A DNA stretch of 27,718 nt. Source: a virus. The number at the start of each line of letters is the position of its first letter. The stretch's first letter is position 1. The position numbers and the translations under genes are program-made. Under the pieces are notes generated by a model that was given only the letters and a program-made list of their open reading frames with translations, was not told where the DNA came from and did no database searches. The stretch lies in IMG/VR virus record IMGVR_UViG_3300032315_000106, positions 1-27,718 of that record; one strand, 5' to 3'. Below are positions 5,203 through 16,820 of the stretch, piece after piece.

Positions 5203-5514
5203 TTAATTGTTTTGTAATTCAGTTACATCAAAATTTTCAGCTTCTTCGTATGTATCAAAAAAATATTCTTGCCCATCATTAAAGTCAGTAACTAAATATT
5301 CAACATCATTACCAAGCATAGAACAAATAGAAACACCATTGTCTAATGCAATATAAACATAAGCAGAATTACAATTAAAACCTATTCCGCCTTCCATTAT
5401 ATCTTCGTTGATAGACGCATAAGCTTCAAAGCATTTAGATAAGCCCATCGATTCGCAATAAGCAATACTTCCTTGATTAAAACCGTGAATCGTAATTGTG
5501 TTTTGATTTTTCAT
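5203..5514 (-). CDS. hypothetical acidic protein (103 aa)
   Basis: A 103-aa protein starting MKNQNTITIHGFNQG, strongly acidic towards the C-terminus (DFNDGQEYFFDTYEEAENF). No membrane helix or known motif. It is the first gene after the terminase and after a Bacteroidetes-type promoter candidate about 30 nt upstream, so it probably heads a transcript of small genes. An acidic, compact protein at the head of an early-type operon would suit an inhibitor or DNA-mimic role, but that is speculation. Confidence 0.5.
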   Translation of the reverse strand: MKNQNTITIHGFNQGSIAYCESMGLSKCFEAYASINEDIMEGGIGFNCNSAYVYIALDNGVSICSMLGNDVEYLVTDFNDGQEYFFDTYEEAENFDVTELQNN

Positions 5515-7203: not shown

Positions 7204-7743
7204 TTATTTAATATAATTTAAAAACTCGTGTCTTGGTTCTCCATTCTTAAATATCCCTAATAGCTTTGATGTAATTGTCCAAGTATCGTGCTTCTTAACT
7301 CCTCTCATACACATACATAAATGCTGCGCTTTTAAAGATACTGCCACACCTTTAGGGTCAAGTTCTTCCATCAACCTTTCTGCTATCTGTGTTGTTATAC
7401 GTTCTTGGTTTTGAAACCTATTAGCGTATAGGTCTACTGTTCTTGCTAATTTAGATAAGCCTACTATCTTATTATTAGGTACATAAGCAACTGCTGCAGT
7501 CCCAAAGAAAGGTGCGGTATGGTGTTCGCATAAAGAATAAAAAGGTATGTCTTTTTGTATAATCATTTCATCAGTACCTTCTCCGTCAAAAGTTGTAAAG
7601 TTAAATTCTTTTGGTTCTAAGAATTCACGCATAAATTTTATATAACGTTTAGGTGTTTCTTTTAAACCTTCTCTATCTGGGTTCTCGCCAAGTTCTGCTA
7701 ATATTTGTTTAAAGTGCCATTCAGGGCTATTTATTTGATACAT
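7204..7743 (-). CDS. folE: GTP cyclohydrolase I (FolE type)
   Basis: Converts GTP to dihydroneopterin triphosphate, the first step towards 7-deazaguanines. I start it at MYQINSPEWHF (179 aa), 1 nt after the queE stop; a longer in-frame extension to 7818 lies wholly inside queE and has no family resemblance. Zinc and active-site residues are present: LCEHH (Cys72, His75) and AQHLCMC (His141, Cys143). VGLSKLARTVDLYANRFQNQ and RITTQIAE match the conserved core. It closes the modification operon just before the terminase genes. No folate genes accompany it, so its product most likely feeds QueD. Confidence 0.93.
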   Translation of the reverse strand: MYQINSPEWHFKQILAELGENPDREGLKETPKRYIKFMREFLEPKEFNFTTFDGEGTDEMIIQKDIPFYSLCEHHTAPFFGTAAVAYVPNNKIVGLSKLARTVDLYANRFQNQERITTQIAERLMEELDPKGVAVSLKAQHLCMCMRGVKKHDTWTITSKLLGIFKNGEPRHEFLNYIK

Positions 7744-7744
7744 A

Positions 7745-8470
7745 TTATACTCCTGTTTTTTTGTTCCATATTTCAATATGTAACCTATTAGTAAATTTAA
7801 TATAATTAGTTTTAGCAATTTCTGCTACTATTTCTTTTGATTTTATTAATTCATCTTGACTGCTTCCTGATGGCATTAACCATACCTTACTTCTATCTAC
7901 TATATCCATATAGAACTTTTTAACTTCCTCCCAATCTTTATCTGTTGTTAATACAAATTTAAATGCAGTATTGTATTTATTTAAAATTGCAATAGCATTA
8001 GTATTATATGTCTTTAATAAAGGCATTCCGCTATTAGCTAATTTAGGGCTACAATTCCATTGATTAACTAAATTGCTTAAATCTTGTCTTGGCTCTATAC
8101 TACCGTTTGTTTCAATCTCTACATAACAATTATCATTATAATTACTTCTAACGTATTTAATAAATTCTATTACATTATTTTGTTGCATTAATGGCTCACC
8201 GCCTGTTACAATTAAATTAGCACCTTTTTTTATTGCTTCAATACAATCTTCTGGTAATATGTCTTTTAATTCTTTTGCTCTACTTTTCATCCAGACCTCT
8301 ATTGTATCGCATCTCCAAGTTGCACCGTCGTATAACTTACCGTCTCTTTGTGTACCTTCTCCCCCACACATTAAATTGCAACCTCCTAATCTTACAAAGA
8401 CTGCAGGATAACCTGTTGTTGGTCCCTCACCTTGTATTGAATAAAATACTTCACTAATTGATAGCTTCAT
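7745..8470 (-). CDS. queE: 7-carboxy-7-deazaguanine synthase (radical SAM)
   Basis: Rearranges CPH4 (the QueD product) to CDG using radical SAM chemistry. I start it at MKLSISEVFYSIQGEG (241 aa), the usual QueE beginning; the 12-codon extension to 8506 lies inside queD. SAM binding is shown by VTGGEPLMQ (residues 88-96). The [4Fe-4S] cysteines are unusually placed: Cys31, Cys35 and Cys54, giving CX3CX18C instead of CX3CX2C or the CX14CX2C reported for Burkholderia QueE; the last sits in the familiar WRCDT context. It overlaps queD by 17 nt and leads into folE. Assignment is firm; the cluster spacing deserves a check. Confidence 0.92.
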   Translation of the reverse strand: MKLSISEVFYSIQGEGPTTGYPAVFVRLGGCNLMCGGEGTQRDGKLYDGATWRCDTIEVWMKSRAKELKDILPEDCIEAIKKGANLIVTGGEPLMQQNNVIEFIKYVRSNYNDNCYVEIETNGSIEPRQDLSNLVNQWNCSPKLANSGMPLLKTYNTNAIAILNKYNTAFKFVLTTDKDWEEVKKFYMDIVDRSKVWLMPSGSSQDELIKSKEIVAEIAKTNYIKFTNRLHIEIWNKKTGV

Positions 8471-8855
8471 AAATAACGTTTGATGTTTTTGTTTCTGCCA
8501 ATTCAATTTTAGTTATTGGCAAATTAGTTTTAATTTGATTAAATATCCATAGTGCCATATTCTCAGCACTTGTTTCAAATGGTAATTTAATATAAGGTTC
8601 GTTTAACAAATCTAAAGCATTGCACAAAGTATCTTCTTTATGTAATAATAAATAATGGTCATATTGTTTTATTATAGGTTCTACTATTTTATCTATATCA
8701 CTAAACAACATTGTAACACCATTTGTTAATTCAGTAAATTTAAAGTGACATATAACATTATAAGTATGTCCGTGCAATCTGCCGCATTTTACTCCTGCTT
8801 CTTTATTTCTGTGTGCAGCGTAAAAATGATATTTTTTTTCTATAATCATAACCAA
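8454..8855 (-). CDS. queD: 6-carboxy-tetrahydropterin synthase
   Basis: Converts dihydroneopterin triphosphate to CPH4. The 133-aa length fits the PTPS/QueD fold. Zinc ligands are His15 (FYAAH) and His28/His30 (GRLHGHTY); the catalytic Cys24 precedes them (GVKCGRLHGH), as in QueD. Asp66-His67 (QYDHYLL) and Glu121 (AETKTSN) complete the active site. It overlaps queC by 10 nt and queE by 17 nt, so all are co-translated. Either ATG at the N-terminus (M1 or M3) is possible. Confidence 0.93.
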   Translation of the reverse strand: MVMIIEKKYHFYAAHRNKEAGVKCGRLHGHTYNVICHFKFTELTNGVTMLFSDIDKIVEPIIKQYDHYLLLHKEDTLCNALDLLNEPYIKLPFETSAENMALWIFNQIKTNLPITKIELAETKTSNVIYEAIN

Positions 8856-9520
8856 CCTTTTTCTTTTGCTTCGTAATAACCTTTAGCTCTTAATTCTGTT
8901 GCAGGATTATCAATATCTCCAAAACCCCATTCATTTTTATTTAAACTTCCATTATAATCAGTCATTGTATAATCAATAATAATGTCTAAGCAATTTAATT
9001 CTTTAGCAAGTTTCCAAGTCTCTGCTTTAGTAATATACATTAGTGGAGTGTGTATTCTATAATCTCCTGTTCCCATTCCTAAAGACAATGTTGTTTGTAA
9101 GCTATCCATTGTTACTTTTCTGCAATCAGGGTATCCCGAAAAATCTGTTTGGCAAACTCCTGTTACTATATCGTTACATCCTAACTCAGCTCCGATTGAA
9201 GCAGCAATAGTTAAAAATAAAAGATTTCTACCGCTTGTAAAAGATGCAGGTAGGTTTTCGTTTAAATAGCTTTTTTGATTATGGTCAGTATTCATAGTTA
9301 AACTGCTATTTGCTAATAAGCCTTTTACATTTAATACTTTGTAACTAACACCTGCTAATTCTGCTATCTGTGCAGCTTTAACTAATTCTACATTATGCAT
9401 CTGTCCATAATTAAAACCTATTGCATAAACTTCTTTAAAATTTTTCTTTGCCCAATATAAACAAGTAGTAGAGTCTTGTCCACCACTTAATAAAACTATT
9501 GCTTTACTACTTTGTTTCAT
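8846..9520 (-). CDS. queC: QueC-like 7-cyano-7-deazaguanine synthase with degenerate zinc site
   Basis: A 224-aa PP-loop enzyme: VLLSGGQDSTT (residues 9-19) binds ATP, and NYGQMHNVEL, FTSGRNLLFL, VTGVCQTDFSGYPDCR and RIHTPL match the QueC core. QueC converts CDG, through the amide ADG, to preQ0. In canonical QueC the C-terminal region carries four zinc cysteines (a Cys before YNG, then a Cys-rich GCGxCxxC block before LR-x-GY). Here that region (residues 186-215) reads TMTDYNG ... WGFGDIDNPATELRAKGY with no cysteine. The fold may be stabilised without zinc, or the product may differ. It follows a 51-aa HTH-like gene and precedes queD. Confidence 0.88.
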   Translation of the reverse strand: MKQSSKAIVLLSGGQDSTTCLYWAKKNFKEVYAIGFNYGQMHNVELVKAAQIAELAGVSYKVLNVKGLLANSSLTMNTDHNQKSYLNENLPASFTSGRNLLFLTIAASIGAELGCNDIVTGVCQTDFSGYPDCRKVTMDSLQTTLSLGMGTGDYRIHTPLMYITKAETWKLAKELNCLDIIIDYTMTDYNGSLNKNEWGFGDIDNPATELRAKGYYEAKEKGWL

Positions 9521-9662
9521 TCTTTTTAATTTTATTAATTTGTATGTTAACTGTTGTTTTGTGAAAACCTAATTTGATTATCTCCTCTTTTGTTTTACCA
9601 TCAGAATGTAATTTTAAAATTGTTTTAATTTTAGTACCTCGTTCGTTGTTTTGTGTGTTCAT
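9507..9662 (-). CDS. small HTH-like protein in the modification operon (51 aa)
   Basis: A 51-residue basic frame starting MNTQNNERGTKIKTILKL and filling the gap between dpdA and queC; its stop lies 14 nt inside queC. Residues 12-45 (ILKLHSDGKTKEEIIKLG, then KTTVNIQINKIK) have helix-turn-helix spacing like short resolvase- or transposase-type HTH domains. It could be a regulator of the modification operon. The leader upstream of the ATG is A-rich. Confidence 0.5.
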   Translation of the reverse strand: MNTQNNERGTKIKTILKLHSDGKTKEEIIKLGFHKTTVNIQINKIKKNETK

Positions 9663-9676
9663 TTTTTTAGTTTTTG

Positions 9677-10408
9677 TTATAAAAAGTTTTCTGCGTATTT
9701 TGAAAATTTAACCCACTCATTAAAGTTATTAAGAGCAGTCATATTTGTTTTAACTCTTTGTCCAATTCCTTTATTTTGTTTTTTCATTGTTTTACCATCG
9801 AACCAATATACTGCTCCAAATCTATTACCTGATAACCAACTTGTTGAATCAACTGAATAAAATTTATATTTTTCTAAACCTTTTAAATTAGTAAAACCTA
9901 GTCCGTGTACTTTAGTATTATTTTCTTTAGCTATTTTAAGTAAATGATTAAATACATCGTATTCACCTCTTTTAATTTCTTGTGTAACAATTCCTCCTAT
10001 TGCTACATAATCATAATCCTTACACATTTTTTTCCAATATTCTAAACCTCTTGACTTATGCCATACGGGTATACTTTTTTTATTAGTTAAATTTTCAAGT
10101 AAACTTCTTAATCTCTCAACCTCTTTTATTCCAACAATTACATCAATATCTAATTCAAAAAAGTAATTTACATTATAATCGTTTATAAATTTAGCATATT
10201 TTTTTATATAATCATTCCAATCTACCTCGCCATTTACTTTTGACATAAATGTAAAAGCTCCGCTATCTAATAAAAACATATTATATTTATGTATATTTTT
10301 CTCTTCACCTTTAATATATACAAAGCTTTCTAATCTATAGAAGTCAAAAAAATCTCTATTTTCCCAACAATGTCTATTCCATCCAGAACCAGCTAAAAAT
10401 ATTCTCAT
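9677..10408 (-). CDS. dpdA: DpdA-like DNA 7-deazaguanine transglycosylase
   Basis: A 243-aa protein of the tRNA-guanine transglycosylase superfamily that would exchange guanine in phage DNA for a 7-deazaguanine base. Visible TIM-barrel motifs in order: LLDSGAFTF (residues 46-54), FFELDIDVIVG (83-93), PVWHKSRG (114-121), VAIGGI (135-140), VHGLGFTN (167-174) and SVDSTSW (185-191). The conserved aspartates in DSGAF and ELDID suit catalysis. It is shorter than bacterial DpdA, as is usual for phage forms, and lacks the classical TGT zinc site. It overlaps the ParB-like gene (ATGA) and precedes the queCDE-folE genes, so substrate synthesis and insertion are co-expressed. Confidence 0.82.
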   Translation of the reverse strand: MRIFLAGSGWNRHCWENRDFFDFYRLESFVYIKGEEKNIHKYNMFLLDSGAFTFMSKVNGEVDWNDYIKKYAKFINDYNVNYFFELDIDVIVGIKEVERLRSLLENLTNKKSIPVWHKSRGLEYWKKMCKDYDYVAIGGIVTQEIKRGEYDVFNHLLKIAKENNTKVHGLGFTNLKGLEKYKFYSVDSTSWLSGNRFGAVYWFDGKTMKKQNKGIGQRVKTNMTALNNFNEWVKFSKYAENFL

Positions 10409-14941: not shown

Positions 14942-15703
14942 TTAAGAAAACGATACTTTGCTAATTTTTATTTGTTCCTCAAAAAATAAAGCTACTGCAA
15001 CTGCTCGAGCCTGGTTCTTTAGCCAACTCTCAGTCCACTCGTCTCGGTACTGCTTTGCACTTATTATGTCCATTTTATTAGCTTTGTAGGTAATAATCTC
15101 CATAAGTTTCTTTTTAGCAACTGCACCATCTTCTTTAGTCCATATCTTAATACCTAAACTATTAAGCTTTGTAAATACAGATAAAGGGTTAAATAACTTA
15201 TCAAATGTTCTATCTTCTAACAATTTGTATTCCTGATAACTGTAATCAATTATCTCTAAATCGGTTAAGTGCGGGATTGCTTCTACTCGTTCTTGTGGCA
15301 TCATTTTTCTTACTTCGTTTGCTTTTTTCTTATACCTGTCCATTACCTGACTAAAATAAGCAGGACTAAAGTTTTGGTAATGGTCTATAAAGTCATTAGC
15401 TACCATTTGCTTAAACGCTACTTTAACTTCGTTTATTGTAAAGTTTCCGTATTGTGTCCTTATCCAATCCTCTAAAACTGCTAACTTAACTTTGTCTGGT
15501 ATTACGTTTATGCCTACTAACTGCATAATGTAAATCAGGTTCTGATGCAGCATTGTTTGATTAAGGCTTCTTATCCTCTCACCCAAAAAGGCGGTCATAA
15601 TCTCCTGCTCCGAAGGTAGTAGCGTTGATAAGGTTGTAGCCGTCAAGGTTAAATTGTTCTCCTTTTGTAAGTTTGCGCTGATTGTTTGTAGTTCCTTTTG
15701 CAT
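14942..15703 (-). CDS. replication protein (helicase-loader-like)
   Basis: A 253-aa soluble protein. The middle (TQYGNFTINEVKVAFKQM, DHYQNFSPAYFSQVM, RYKKKANEVRKM) resembles proteins I associate with Bacteroidetes phage replication loci, downstream of a DUF1376 protein. A helicase-loader or primosome role is inferred. The chosen start MQKELQTISANLQKEN gives a 125-nt out-of-frame overlap with the preceding gene; a shorter start at M51 (15553) avoids this, but the overlapping segment (LLPSEQEIMTAFLGERI) looks coding, so I keep it. No Walker motif is seen. Confidence 0.6.
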   Translation of the reverse strand: MQKELQTISANLQKENNLTLTATTLSTLLPSEQEIMTAFLGERIRSLNQTMLHQNLIYIMQLVGINVIPDKVKLAVLEDWIRTQYGNFTINEVKVAFKQMVANDFIDHYQNFSPAYFSQVMDRYKKKANEVRKMMPQERVEAIPHLTDLEIIDYSYQEYKLLEDRTFDKLFNPLSVFTKLNSLGIKIWTKEDGAVAKKKLMEIITYKANKMDIISAKQYRDEWTESWLKNQARAVAVALFFEEQIKISKVSFS

Positions 15704-16280
15704 ATTGTTTAGTGTTTGTTATCCAATTATTTGCGGCTGCTCCCCAACTTTTCATAGGGTTCTTACCTACTTTCCACCCATTACTTTCGTAGTAATTTAC
15801 AAACTTTTCAGCTTCAATCTTTGCTTGGTCTAAATCAATTCTTGATGCCATATATTCATAAGCTTGTTCAAAATTACATTTACTTTTATTATTATTTATA
15901 TCTTTATTTATATCTTCATTTACATTTTCCATATGGGAGTCCATATGAGGTTGCATATGCGTTTCATATGGGGGTTCATATGAGGGTTTGTCTTTAGGTT
16001 TCATATTGTTTCGCCTTGACTCAGTAAAGGTTTTACGCTTATCCTTTTCAACATCAAGCCTGACATTGTACCATAAACCTTCGTTATCTTGTATAAACTT
16101 GCATTTCACTTGTTCCCACAAGTGACCAACCGTATGTTGTATCATATGAGTATTCATATGACCACGATTGAATTGAAGCATAAGCAAATCCATATATGCT
16201 CCTTTTTCTTCAAATGTCATTCCCATTGTGCCACTAACATAGTCGCCGGGATAAAATAAAAACGCTGGGTCTTTTGCCAT
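15579..16280 (-). CDS. DUF1376/YdaU-type replication initiator-like protein
   Basis: A 233-aa protein starting MAKDPAFLFYPGDYVSGTMG, a canonical DUF1376 N-terminus: a winged-helix-like domain (residues 1-75) that in phages sits at replication origins. A linker follows, full of Met-His repeats (METHMQPHMDSHMENV-like stretch around residues 104-120), then a C-terminal domain with KVGKNPMKSWGAAANNW. The ATG follows directly on an eight-U tract of a strong terminator hairpin, with no ribosome-binding site, so expression may be gated by read-through. It probably initiates or loads the replisome together with the next gene. Confidence 0.75.
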   Translation of the reverse strand: MAKDPAFLFYPGDYVSGTMGMTFEEKGAYMDLLMLQFNRGHMNTHMIQHTVGHLWEQVKCKFIQDNEGLWYNVRLDVEKDKRKTFTESRRNNMKPKDKPSYEPPYETHMQPHMDSHMENVNEDINKDINNNKSKCNFEQAYEYMASRIDLDQAKIEAEKFVNYYESNGWKVGKNPMKSWGAAANNWITNTKQYAKGTTNNQRKLTKGEQFNLDGYNLINATTFGAGDYDRLFG

Positions 16281-16319
16281 AAAAAAAATAAACCCCGATA
16301 GCTACGAACTACCAGGGTT
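16281..16319 (-). terminator. intrinsic terminator abutting a start codon
   Basis: On the minus strand AACCCUGGUAG pairs with CUAUCGGGGUU over 11 uninterrupted base pairs (two G-U wobbles, both possible only on this strand), with loop UUCGUAG, followed by UA and eight U. The U-tract ends immediately before the ATG at 16280. It looks like a strong Rho-independent terminator placed so that read-through transcripts start translating at once. Confidence 0.75.
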
Positions 16320-16375
16320 ATTATTATTTAACCACTAAACACATAGTCGGTTCGTAGTACGTCTATGTCTTTTTA
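16281..16375 (-). ncRNA. candidate leader RNA with kissing-loop hairpins
   Basis: A transcript from the promoter at 16382-16411 would begin near 16375 and end at the terminator (about 95 nt). Hairpin B (16341-16368) pairs ACAUAG with CUAUGU, then CG with CG across an A-A mismatch, leaving loop UACUACGAAC. Seven nucleotides of that loop, CUACGAA, are the exact complement of the complete terminator loop UUCGUAG, so the two hairpins could kiss, or an 8-bp long-range helix could compete with the terminator stem. It could act as an attenuator for the DUF1376 gene or be a free small RNA. Confidence 0.5.
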
Positions 16376-16381
16376 TATCTG

Positions 16382-16411
16382 CAAATATACACTAATTTTC
16401 AATAAGTTCAA
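16382..16411 (-). promoter_or_regulatory. Bacteroidetes-type promoter for the leader RNA
   Basis: On the minus strand TTG (16411-16409), exactly 19 nt, then TATATTTG (16389-16382), a perfect TAnnTTTG. It overlaps the last codons of the DnaA-like gene and points to a start near 16375, just before hairpin B. It is the best promoter match I found in the window. Confidence 0.65.
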
Positions 16412-16820
16412 TCTTTTGACAAATTCTTTTTAATTTGTCTTTAAACCAATCTTCCGTGTCAATTAGGTTGTTTGCTTGTTTTATGTTATGTATTGCGGTT
16501 GTGTGGTCCTTAGTGCCTGAGTATATGCTTATATCTTTGAGGCTTAACTTAGTGTATCGCCTTAATAAATAAGCAGCAGCCTTACGACCAAAAGTAGTTT
16601 TTAAACTTCTATCTTTTTTTAACACATCGCATTCAAATGTCTCATCTACTAAACTTACAATTTTTAATGCTCCTATATCTGCGCCTAAAGGCTGATTATC
16701 TTCAATGCCTAATAGTCCCAACTGGTGCATCATATCGTGTAGGCGTATATGGGTAAGTCTTTGAGCATAATATAAATCTTTTAATTGTTTGATTGATACA
16801 TCTTTTTTCTTAGTTAGCAT
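16392..16820 (-). CDS. orphan DnaA domain IV-like DNA-binding protein
   Basis: A 142-aa protein whose C-terminal half matches the DnaA DNA-binding domain: TTFGRKAAAYLLRRYTKLSL (residues 75-94), then ISIYSGTKDHTTAIHNIKQA (97-116), where KDHTTAIHNI reproduces the DnaA signature (GRDHTTVLHA-like). The AAA+ ATPase domain is absent; the N-terminus (residues 1-70) is an unrelated helical segment. It probably binds DnaA boxes, either to recruit host DnaA to the phage origin or to compete with it. The neighbouring DUF1376, ERF and HTH genes form the replication region. Confidence 0.75.
   Translation of the reverse strand: MLTKKKDVSIKQLKDLYYAQRLTHIRLHDMMHQLGLLGIEDNQPLGADIGALKIVSLVDETFECDVLKKDRSLKTTFGRKAAAYLLRRYTKLSLKDISIYSGTKDHTTAIHNIKQANNLIDTEDWFKDKLKRICQKIELIEN

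Follow-up and report, generated by a model that had tools for sequence, protein, structure and literature searches.

Kissing hairpin loops in the leader of a replication gene from uncultured phages

Described kissing RNAs and the present leader

Most known cases of terminators controlled by kissing loops come from plasmids and corrinoid riboswitches. In phages, complementary loops are found in the pRNA of phi29, a small RNA that multimerises and serves packaging, and short complementary segments set the immunity specificity of the c4 RNA of P1 and P7, which blocks the translation of another gene. The leader presented here resembles pRNA in having complementary loops in a phage RNA but differs by its location at replication. 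It resembles the c4 RNA in its short complementary segments, but c4 is not known to kiss a terminator loop.

In the CI/seqA-seqC system of satellite phage P4, premature termination in the leader blocks replication-gene expression (PMC4825925). There, as at the present locus, complementary segments lie inside the untranslated leader of a phage replication operon (PMC4825925). The CI RNA is processed and acts as an antisense RNA, whereas here the complementary segments are two hairpin loops, one of which belongs to the terminator. Kissing loops, a replication target and diversified loops are also shared with ColE1 RNAI/RNAII, the pT181 RNAI attenuator and the I-complex RNAI (PMC3753616, PMC10724649), and the pT181 case additionally shares a terminator with the leader. 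All these plasmid systems depend on an antisense RNA that is transcribed from the opposite strand, whereas the kissing described here lies within one RNA species. A TAHHTTTG box on the antisense strand within 400 nt downstream of the leader was absent from 10 of 11 genomes; since the lone opposite-strand match was a -7-like site at +373 in the remaining one (G020), an antisense RNA of the ColE1/pT181 type is unlikely. In corrinoid riboswitches, L5-L13 kissing between an upstream hairpin and the expression platform controls a terminator or ribosome-binding-site hairpin and stabilises P13 (PMC10653944). The present leader likewise places the kissing between an upstream hairpin and the expression-platform hairpin. 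Unlike the riboswitch, it has no known aptamer or Rfam match, and the partner is the terminator's own loop, paired over 7 bp.

The window, meaning the whole 27,718-nucleotide stretch of DNA that was analysed (IMG/VR record IMGVR_UViG_3300032315_000106), gave no match in Rfam 15 at E up to 1. Ten further loci were searched at their leaders with the same outcome, except for a weak rhtB match in L712 (29.9 bits against a cut-off of 55 bits). No description of the leader was found in the open literature searched. The leader is a new RNA family, which is classed here as a leader attenuator with a kissing loop. This structured RNA, uncatalogued so far, is widespread among uncultured phages and stands at their replication gene; in at least two versions of unrelated sequence, the kissing partner is the loop of the terminator itself. 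The replication control of Bacteroidota phages thereby becomes directly testable, and at least 15 natural loop pairs become candidates for use in RNA regulation.

Layout of the leader in the window

The window contains portal, terminase, Erf, exonuclease and endolysin genes and a 7-deazaguanine gene set, and for this reason it is regarded as a tailed-phage contig. In a separate region (7204-10408, minus strand), genes for GTP cyclohydrolase, QueE, QueD and QueC stand in a row with a gene like that for queuine tRNA-ribosyltransferase, which points to a probable 7-deazaguanine modification of the phage's DNA. On the minus strand, the locus of interest runs from a gene for a DnaA C-terminal domain through the promoter, hairpin H1, a linker, an intrinsic terminator and its U-tract to a DUF1376-like gene. 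Its features are as follows.

16392-16820, minus strand: upstream gene, protein with a DnaA C-terminal (DNA-binding) domain (Bac_DnaA_C, E 5.2e-11)
16382-16411, minus strand: Bacteroidota-type promoter, -33 TTG at 16411-16409, N19, -7 box TATATTTG at 16389-16382 (sequence inspection)
16338-16371, minus strand: hairpin H1, with an outer stem, a 1x1 mismatch, inner C-G/G-C pairs and a 10-nt loop at 16359-16350 (folding and covariation)
16351-16357, minus strand: first kissing sequence, CUACGAA, nucleotides 3-9 of the H1 loop (7/7 match to the terminator loop)
16320-16337, minus strand: invariant linker between the hairpins, UAGUGGUUAAAUAAUAAU in the window (class A comparison)
16291-16319, minus strand: terminator hairpin of 11 bp, arms 16319-16309 and 16301-16291, loop 16308-16302 (folding and covariation)
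16281-16290, minus strand: U-tract UAUUUUUUUU (T-rich in the DNA), with the start codon immediately after it (sequence; juxtaposition kept in relatives)
15579-16280, minus strand: replication gene of the primosomal/replication-initiation type, DUF1376-like N-terminus, ATG at 16280 (Pfam and PHROG)

The first-pass annotation had placed a consensus promoter, TTG-N19-TATATTTG, at the end of the DnaA-like gene, and this was located at 16411-16382 on the minus strand, where it overlaps the gene's stop codon. It agrees with the Bacteroidota promoter consensus, TTTG/TANNTTTG (PMC6847099). The -7 box (TATATTTG/TATATTCG) is retained in relatives, though the spacer between the box and H1 differs in length. 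By the Bacteroidota -7 rule, transcription is predicted to start at about 16377-16375, giving an RNA of about 95 nt. The two hairpins that had been described in a leader of this length were both recovered by folding, and both covary. A stretch of 116 nt folds better than its shuffles (z -3.3; 1 of 200 shuffles was as good). H1 is weaker in the window than in most relatives, with a G-G mismatch at alignment columns 6-35. The entire 7-nt terminator loop, UUCGUAG, is the second kissing sequence and is complementary to CUACGAA in the H1 loop.

For the 11-pair terminator, whose U-tract had been said to end at the ATG of the replication gene, sequence, folding and relatives agree. It has the features of an intrinsic terminator, an 11-bp stem and a U-tract, and both are retained across three stem types. 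The observation that the wobble pairs fit the minus strand only also stands, because G-U pairs in the stems were found solely on the transcript strand, and this indicates that the element acts as RNA. The replication gene matches Pfam DUF1376 with E 1.3e-5, under the gathering score, and PHROG primosomal proteins with 3.7e-7 and 6.1e-6. That no ribosome site precedes it, as the same annotation pointed out, is normal in Bacteroidota, whose genes have no Shine-Dalgarno sites (PMC6847099). The gene with the DnaA C-terminal domain is a neighbour of the element in class A, defined below, and lies outside the element itself.

Compensatory change in the loops and the distribution of the leader

Relatives of the leader in the window are termed class A. 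When IMG/VR was scanned with the DUF1376 protein, 80 relatives were obtained, and for 78 of them the upstream sequence was long enough. The first-pass annotation had named the loss of the paired loops in homologues that keep the gene as evidence against its proposal; no such loss was seen, and all 78 close loci have the leader with paired loops. More leaders were collected by scanning with the conserved linker, and there were 54 distinct cores among the matches listed. Their loops form six 7-mer pairs: CUACGAA/UUCGUAG, CUGCGAA/UUCGCAG, GUACGAA/UUCGUAC, GAGCGAA/UUCGCUC, AGUCCAG/CUGGACU and AGUCGAG/CUCGACU. The complementarity over 7 nt that had been noted in the window is kept at 7/7 by compensatory change in 53 of the 54 distinct cores among the matches listed. 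The sole core with a mismatch (L125) resembles a recombinant of two alleles.

The check that had been proposed, a search for covariation in relatives, was made on 26 representative sequences. In these, the kissing helix is 99.5% paired, 5 of its 7 pairs change on both sides, and none of this occurs through G-U. H1 is paired in 98.9% of cells, with three pairs that change on both sides (UA/AU, AU/GC/UA and CG/GC), and the terminator stem is 97.9% paired, with four pairs that show double changes. Shuffled and slid controls lay far below the real alignment in both the cells paired and the covariation score. As background, among 173 unrelated terminators with 7-nt loops, only 3 have a complementary 7-mer within 95 nt upstream. 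The linker is nearly unchanging through class A up to AAAUAAUA and is 16-18 nt long.

One earlier suggestion was not sustained, namely that an alternative 8-bp helix could act as a switch. In the class A alignment, the eighth pair (column 25 with 67) shows no compensatory change and is lost in two sequences, and a pair on the other side of the kissing helix never forms; pairing is limited to the loops because neither flanking pair is maintained. The forced 8-bp alternative is also 4.3 kcal/mol less stable. Since the eighth pair is uncompensated, the terminator stem covaries independently and no stem nucleotide is used, the pairing and the terminator can coexist. H1, the kissing helix and the terminator are kept together, which in the alignment has the signature of a kissing complex alongside the terminator and not of a mutually exclusive switch.

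More distant phages were reached by means of two other types of replication protein found downstream of the leader, FTDTEKW and Lin1244_N. Their leaders, termed class B, have the same position, after a TAnnTTTG box and directly before an ATG. The loops and linker are unrelated in sequence to those of class A; the plan is the same. The loop of H1 has 7 nt (e.g., AGGU-GUCGGAU-ACCU) and the linker reads AACUUAUU. The terminator has two tiers, and the 7-nt loop of its inner hairpin is the perfect complement of the H1 loop (AUCCGAC). Class B pairs were counted by script, as the MAFFT alignment misplaced the longer inner stems. Among the matches listed, 76 of 77 records have 7/7 Watson-Crick pairing, with nine 7-mer pairs; the exception (L832) has unrelated sequence where H1 should be. 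In both classes, two loops pair and their pairing is kept by compensatory change, as in a kissing-loop complex. Judged by comparison of sequences, the loop pairing is a real control element, kept through at least 15 loop sequences, and the comparison excludes chance. Other versions fit the plan, with complementarity over 8 nt (L717 and L703), 7 nt (L731) or only 6 nt (L630/L635/L659 and L712). Each is represented by one or a few sequences, and these versions are suggestive only. Those of L703, L712, L717 and L731 stand before genes of the Lin1244_N type.

The genes around the leader vary. Class A leaders precede two kinds of DUF1376-like gene, Lin1244_N, a gene for the FTDTEKW protein or an HNH/GIY-YIG endonuclease gene. 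The endonuclease genes (L083, L088, L094 and others) sit exactly between the leader and the replication gene and occupy the start-codon position of the latter, directly after the leader. Among the matches listed, class B leaders precede 23 different protein starts, belonging to more than 10 kinds of protein, and in 76 of 76 the ATG of the open reading frame follows the last U run by 0-3 nt. Upstream genes also vary among leader-bearing loci. The loop alleles do not track the upstream gene, with 53 changes on a tree of 111 rows and, on repeat, 54 changes against a shuffled mean of 66.6. Other genes of the region are mosaic as well (20 changes against 28.8 when shuffled), and therefore no special shuffling hotspot is claimed. 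The key point of the allele mixing is that, as far as the aligned loci tell, both loops stay matched through it. The replication protein of the window (P0001) and its counterparts (L058, L089 and L102) have differing N-terminal domains (DUF1376, Lin1244_N and others) and a common C-terminal part, which suggests domain swapping in the 5' half of the replication gene.

The genes for distantly homologous replication proteins often lack a leader and stand directly behind another gene, so the element appears to be a trait of certain phage lineages and dispensable for the protein. No such leader was found at the replication loci of the cultured phages inspected (Porphyromonas, Flavobacterium 1/32 and Pan5) or in two gut scaffolds inspected. 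The covariance model of class A gave a single weak match (E 0.0016) in 395 Bacteroidia genomes, and the DnaA-like protein was found in none of the 395. Other covariance-model matches in bacterial genomes were rejected, as they look like AT-rich sequence with a terminator. A scan of bacterial genomes with a 15-mer gave matches at chance level only. In a Bacteroidetes metagenome-assembled genome (L213:3250), GTGTTTAGTGGTTAAATAA stands directly before an intrinsic terminator without kissing loops, probably by chance. The uncultured phages that bear the leader probably infect Bacteroidota, a host phylum assigned from the promoter type only.

Possible modes of action

The reading that we favour, with moderate confidence at about an even chance, is that the leader is a cis-acting attenuator of the replication operon, with kissing loops within one RNA and a terminated product that is also a small RNA. 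As in a classical attenuator, a promoter and a terminator lie directly upstream of the operon. A classical attenuator would also have a mutually exclusive antiterminator; in the class A alignment, no conserved helix mutually exclusive with the terminator was found. In 11 genomes, one strand carries nearly all long open reading frames. Conserved intrinsic terminators number only about four per genome, and downstream of the leader about 2.5 kb pass before the next promoter-like site that recurs. Given these features, the replication gene appears to depend on terminator read-through, and we infer that the leader attenuates its expression in cis.

The dedicated promoter would give an RNA of about 95 nt, with the transcript either stopping as a small RNA or reading through into the replication gene. 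On leaving the polymerase, H1 would fold first and could capture the terminator loop before the 3' arm of the terminator exists. The kissing helix may then nucleate, stabilise or delay the terminator and in this way set how much polymerase reaches the replication gene. If H1, the 7-bp kissing helix and the terminator stem stack coaxially, the length of the linker suffices to bridge them, by a geometric estimate (approximately 75-80 angstrom). Because kissing and terminator are conserved together, the kissing need not oppose termination, and stabilising would be as likely as delaying. The read-through mRNA has a strong predicted hairpin about 12 nt before the AUG and a U-rich context with U at -3. 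In F. johnsoniae, initiation is favoured by A at -3 and by a lack of structure (PMC6847099). Translation of the read-through mRNA should therefore be weak, which could provide a second brake. The terminated RNA of about 95 nt would be expected to build up and may have a function of its own, and attenuation could be tuned by a factor bound to the kissing complex or to the invariant linker.

A tentative alternative, possible but rather improbable, is that the small RNA of about 95 nt is the main product. The kissing would then be its tertiary fold, the linker its functional site, and the gene would be served by leaky read-through. A promoter, a short RNA and a strong terminator with nothing else between them would suit such an RNA, as would the contrast between the diversifying loops and the linker, where conservation is highest, and the indifference of the element to the identity of the genes on either side. 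However, the ATG always follows the U-tract directly, whatever the gene; a free RNA would not need this, and the fixed junction argues for a role in cis. In addition, the phage genomes hold no consistent target for the linker's complement, and the linker of class B is unrelated.

We consider it unlikely that the terminated leader acts in trans, as a feedback or immunity RNA that kisses nascent leaders of the same allele, from the phage's own copies or from co-infecting phages, and changes their termination. Precedents are the P4 CI RNA (PMC4825925) and plasmid RNAI, in which single loop changes alter compatibility (PMC10724649). At least 15 alleles are common and intermixed among close relatives, the loops are the fastest-changing part, and cognate loops pair with means of -8.4/-8.0 kcal/mol against -2.5/-2.3 for non-cognate ones. 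A search of 11 genomes for a third partner found no other site that tracks the loop allele. Nevertheless, intramolecular kissing should usually beat pairing in trans, some alleles one base apart cross-pair well (CUGCGAA with UUCGUAG, -6.8), and the alleles are shuffled only somewhat more than these mosaic genomes are in general (54 of 66.6 against 20 of 28.8). If kissing were restricted to the same allele, which we likewise doubt, a phage could count its own genome copies and shut down the replication of co-infecting relatives with that allele. The interchangeable loop pairs would then be natural orthogonal incompatibility groups for phage replication.

It is improbable that the leader is riboswitch-like, with a ligand or protein binding the linker or H1 and thereby stabilising the kissing loop and hence the terminator. 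The linker is invariant within each class, and it is well established that an expression-platform hairpin can be engaged by kissing (PMC10653944), but there is no Rfam riboswitch match, the element is too small for the known large aptamers, and the linkers of classes A and B are unrelated. A role at the DNA level, as an origin element or as single-stranded hairpins bound by a primer or initiator beside the DnaA-like gene, is very improbable. The location between replication genes and the likeness of the linker AGTGGTTAA to a DnaA box would fit it, but the promoter and U-tract are conserved, G-U pairs occur on the RNA strand only, the linker occurs once per genome, and class B has the same architecture although its upstream genes differ and it lacks the box. 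A leader-peptide attenuator with a mini-ORF in the linker (MCLVVK-stop), suggested by AUGUGUUUAGUGGUUAAAUAA in nearly all leaders of class A, was rejected as hardly credible, since the frame is not conserved: it is broken in L331 (AUGUUUUAG), read through in the TATAAT variants L005, L017, L038 and L042 and absent in class B, and its start codon is buried in H1.

In many viral contigs that had been chosen because they contain the linker's complement, TTAACCACTAAA, this word lies 9-13 nt upstream of an ATG, a peak that is absent on the other strand (contigs L520-L535 and L400-L519). The word is possibly a common 5'UTR or initiation element. In the window, AATTAACCACAAAA stands at 5537-5524 on the minus strand, behind a TATATTTAC box and 9 nt before the open reading frame 5203-5514; a protein search for the product of this frame in 24 related genomes found nothing. 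Most of these 24 genomes have the word only as the leader itself, and the linker was rejected as an antisense seed on this ground. Another conserved hairpin that resembles a terminator stands about 29 nt upstream of a gene whose product starts with M(P/A)CALTQNY, for example in L573 (relative position -14278 in G001) and L580 (+20670 in G012). Its stems are GGGTAGG/CCTACCC, GGGGGAT/ATCCCCC or GGGGGG/CCCCCC, and its loop of 8 nt is TTGAAATA. The compensatory stem and near-constant loop suggest that this hairpin is another regulatory RNA.
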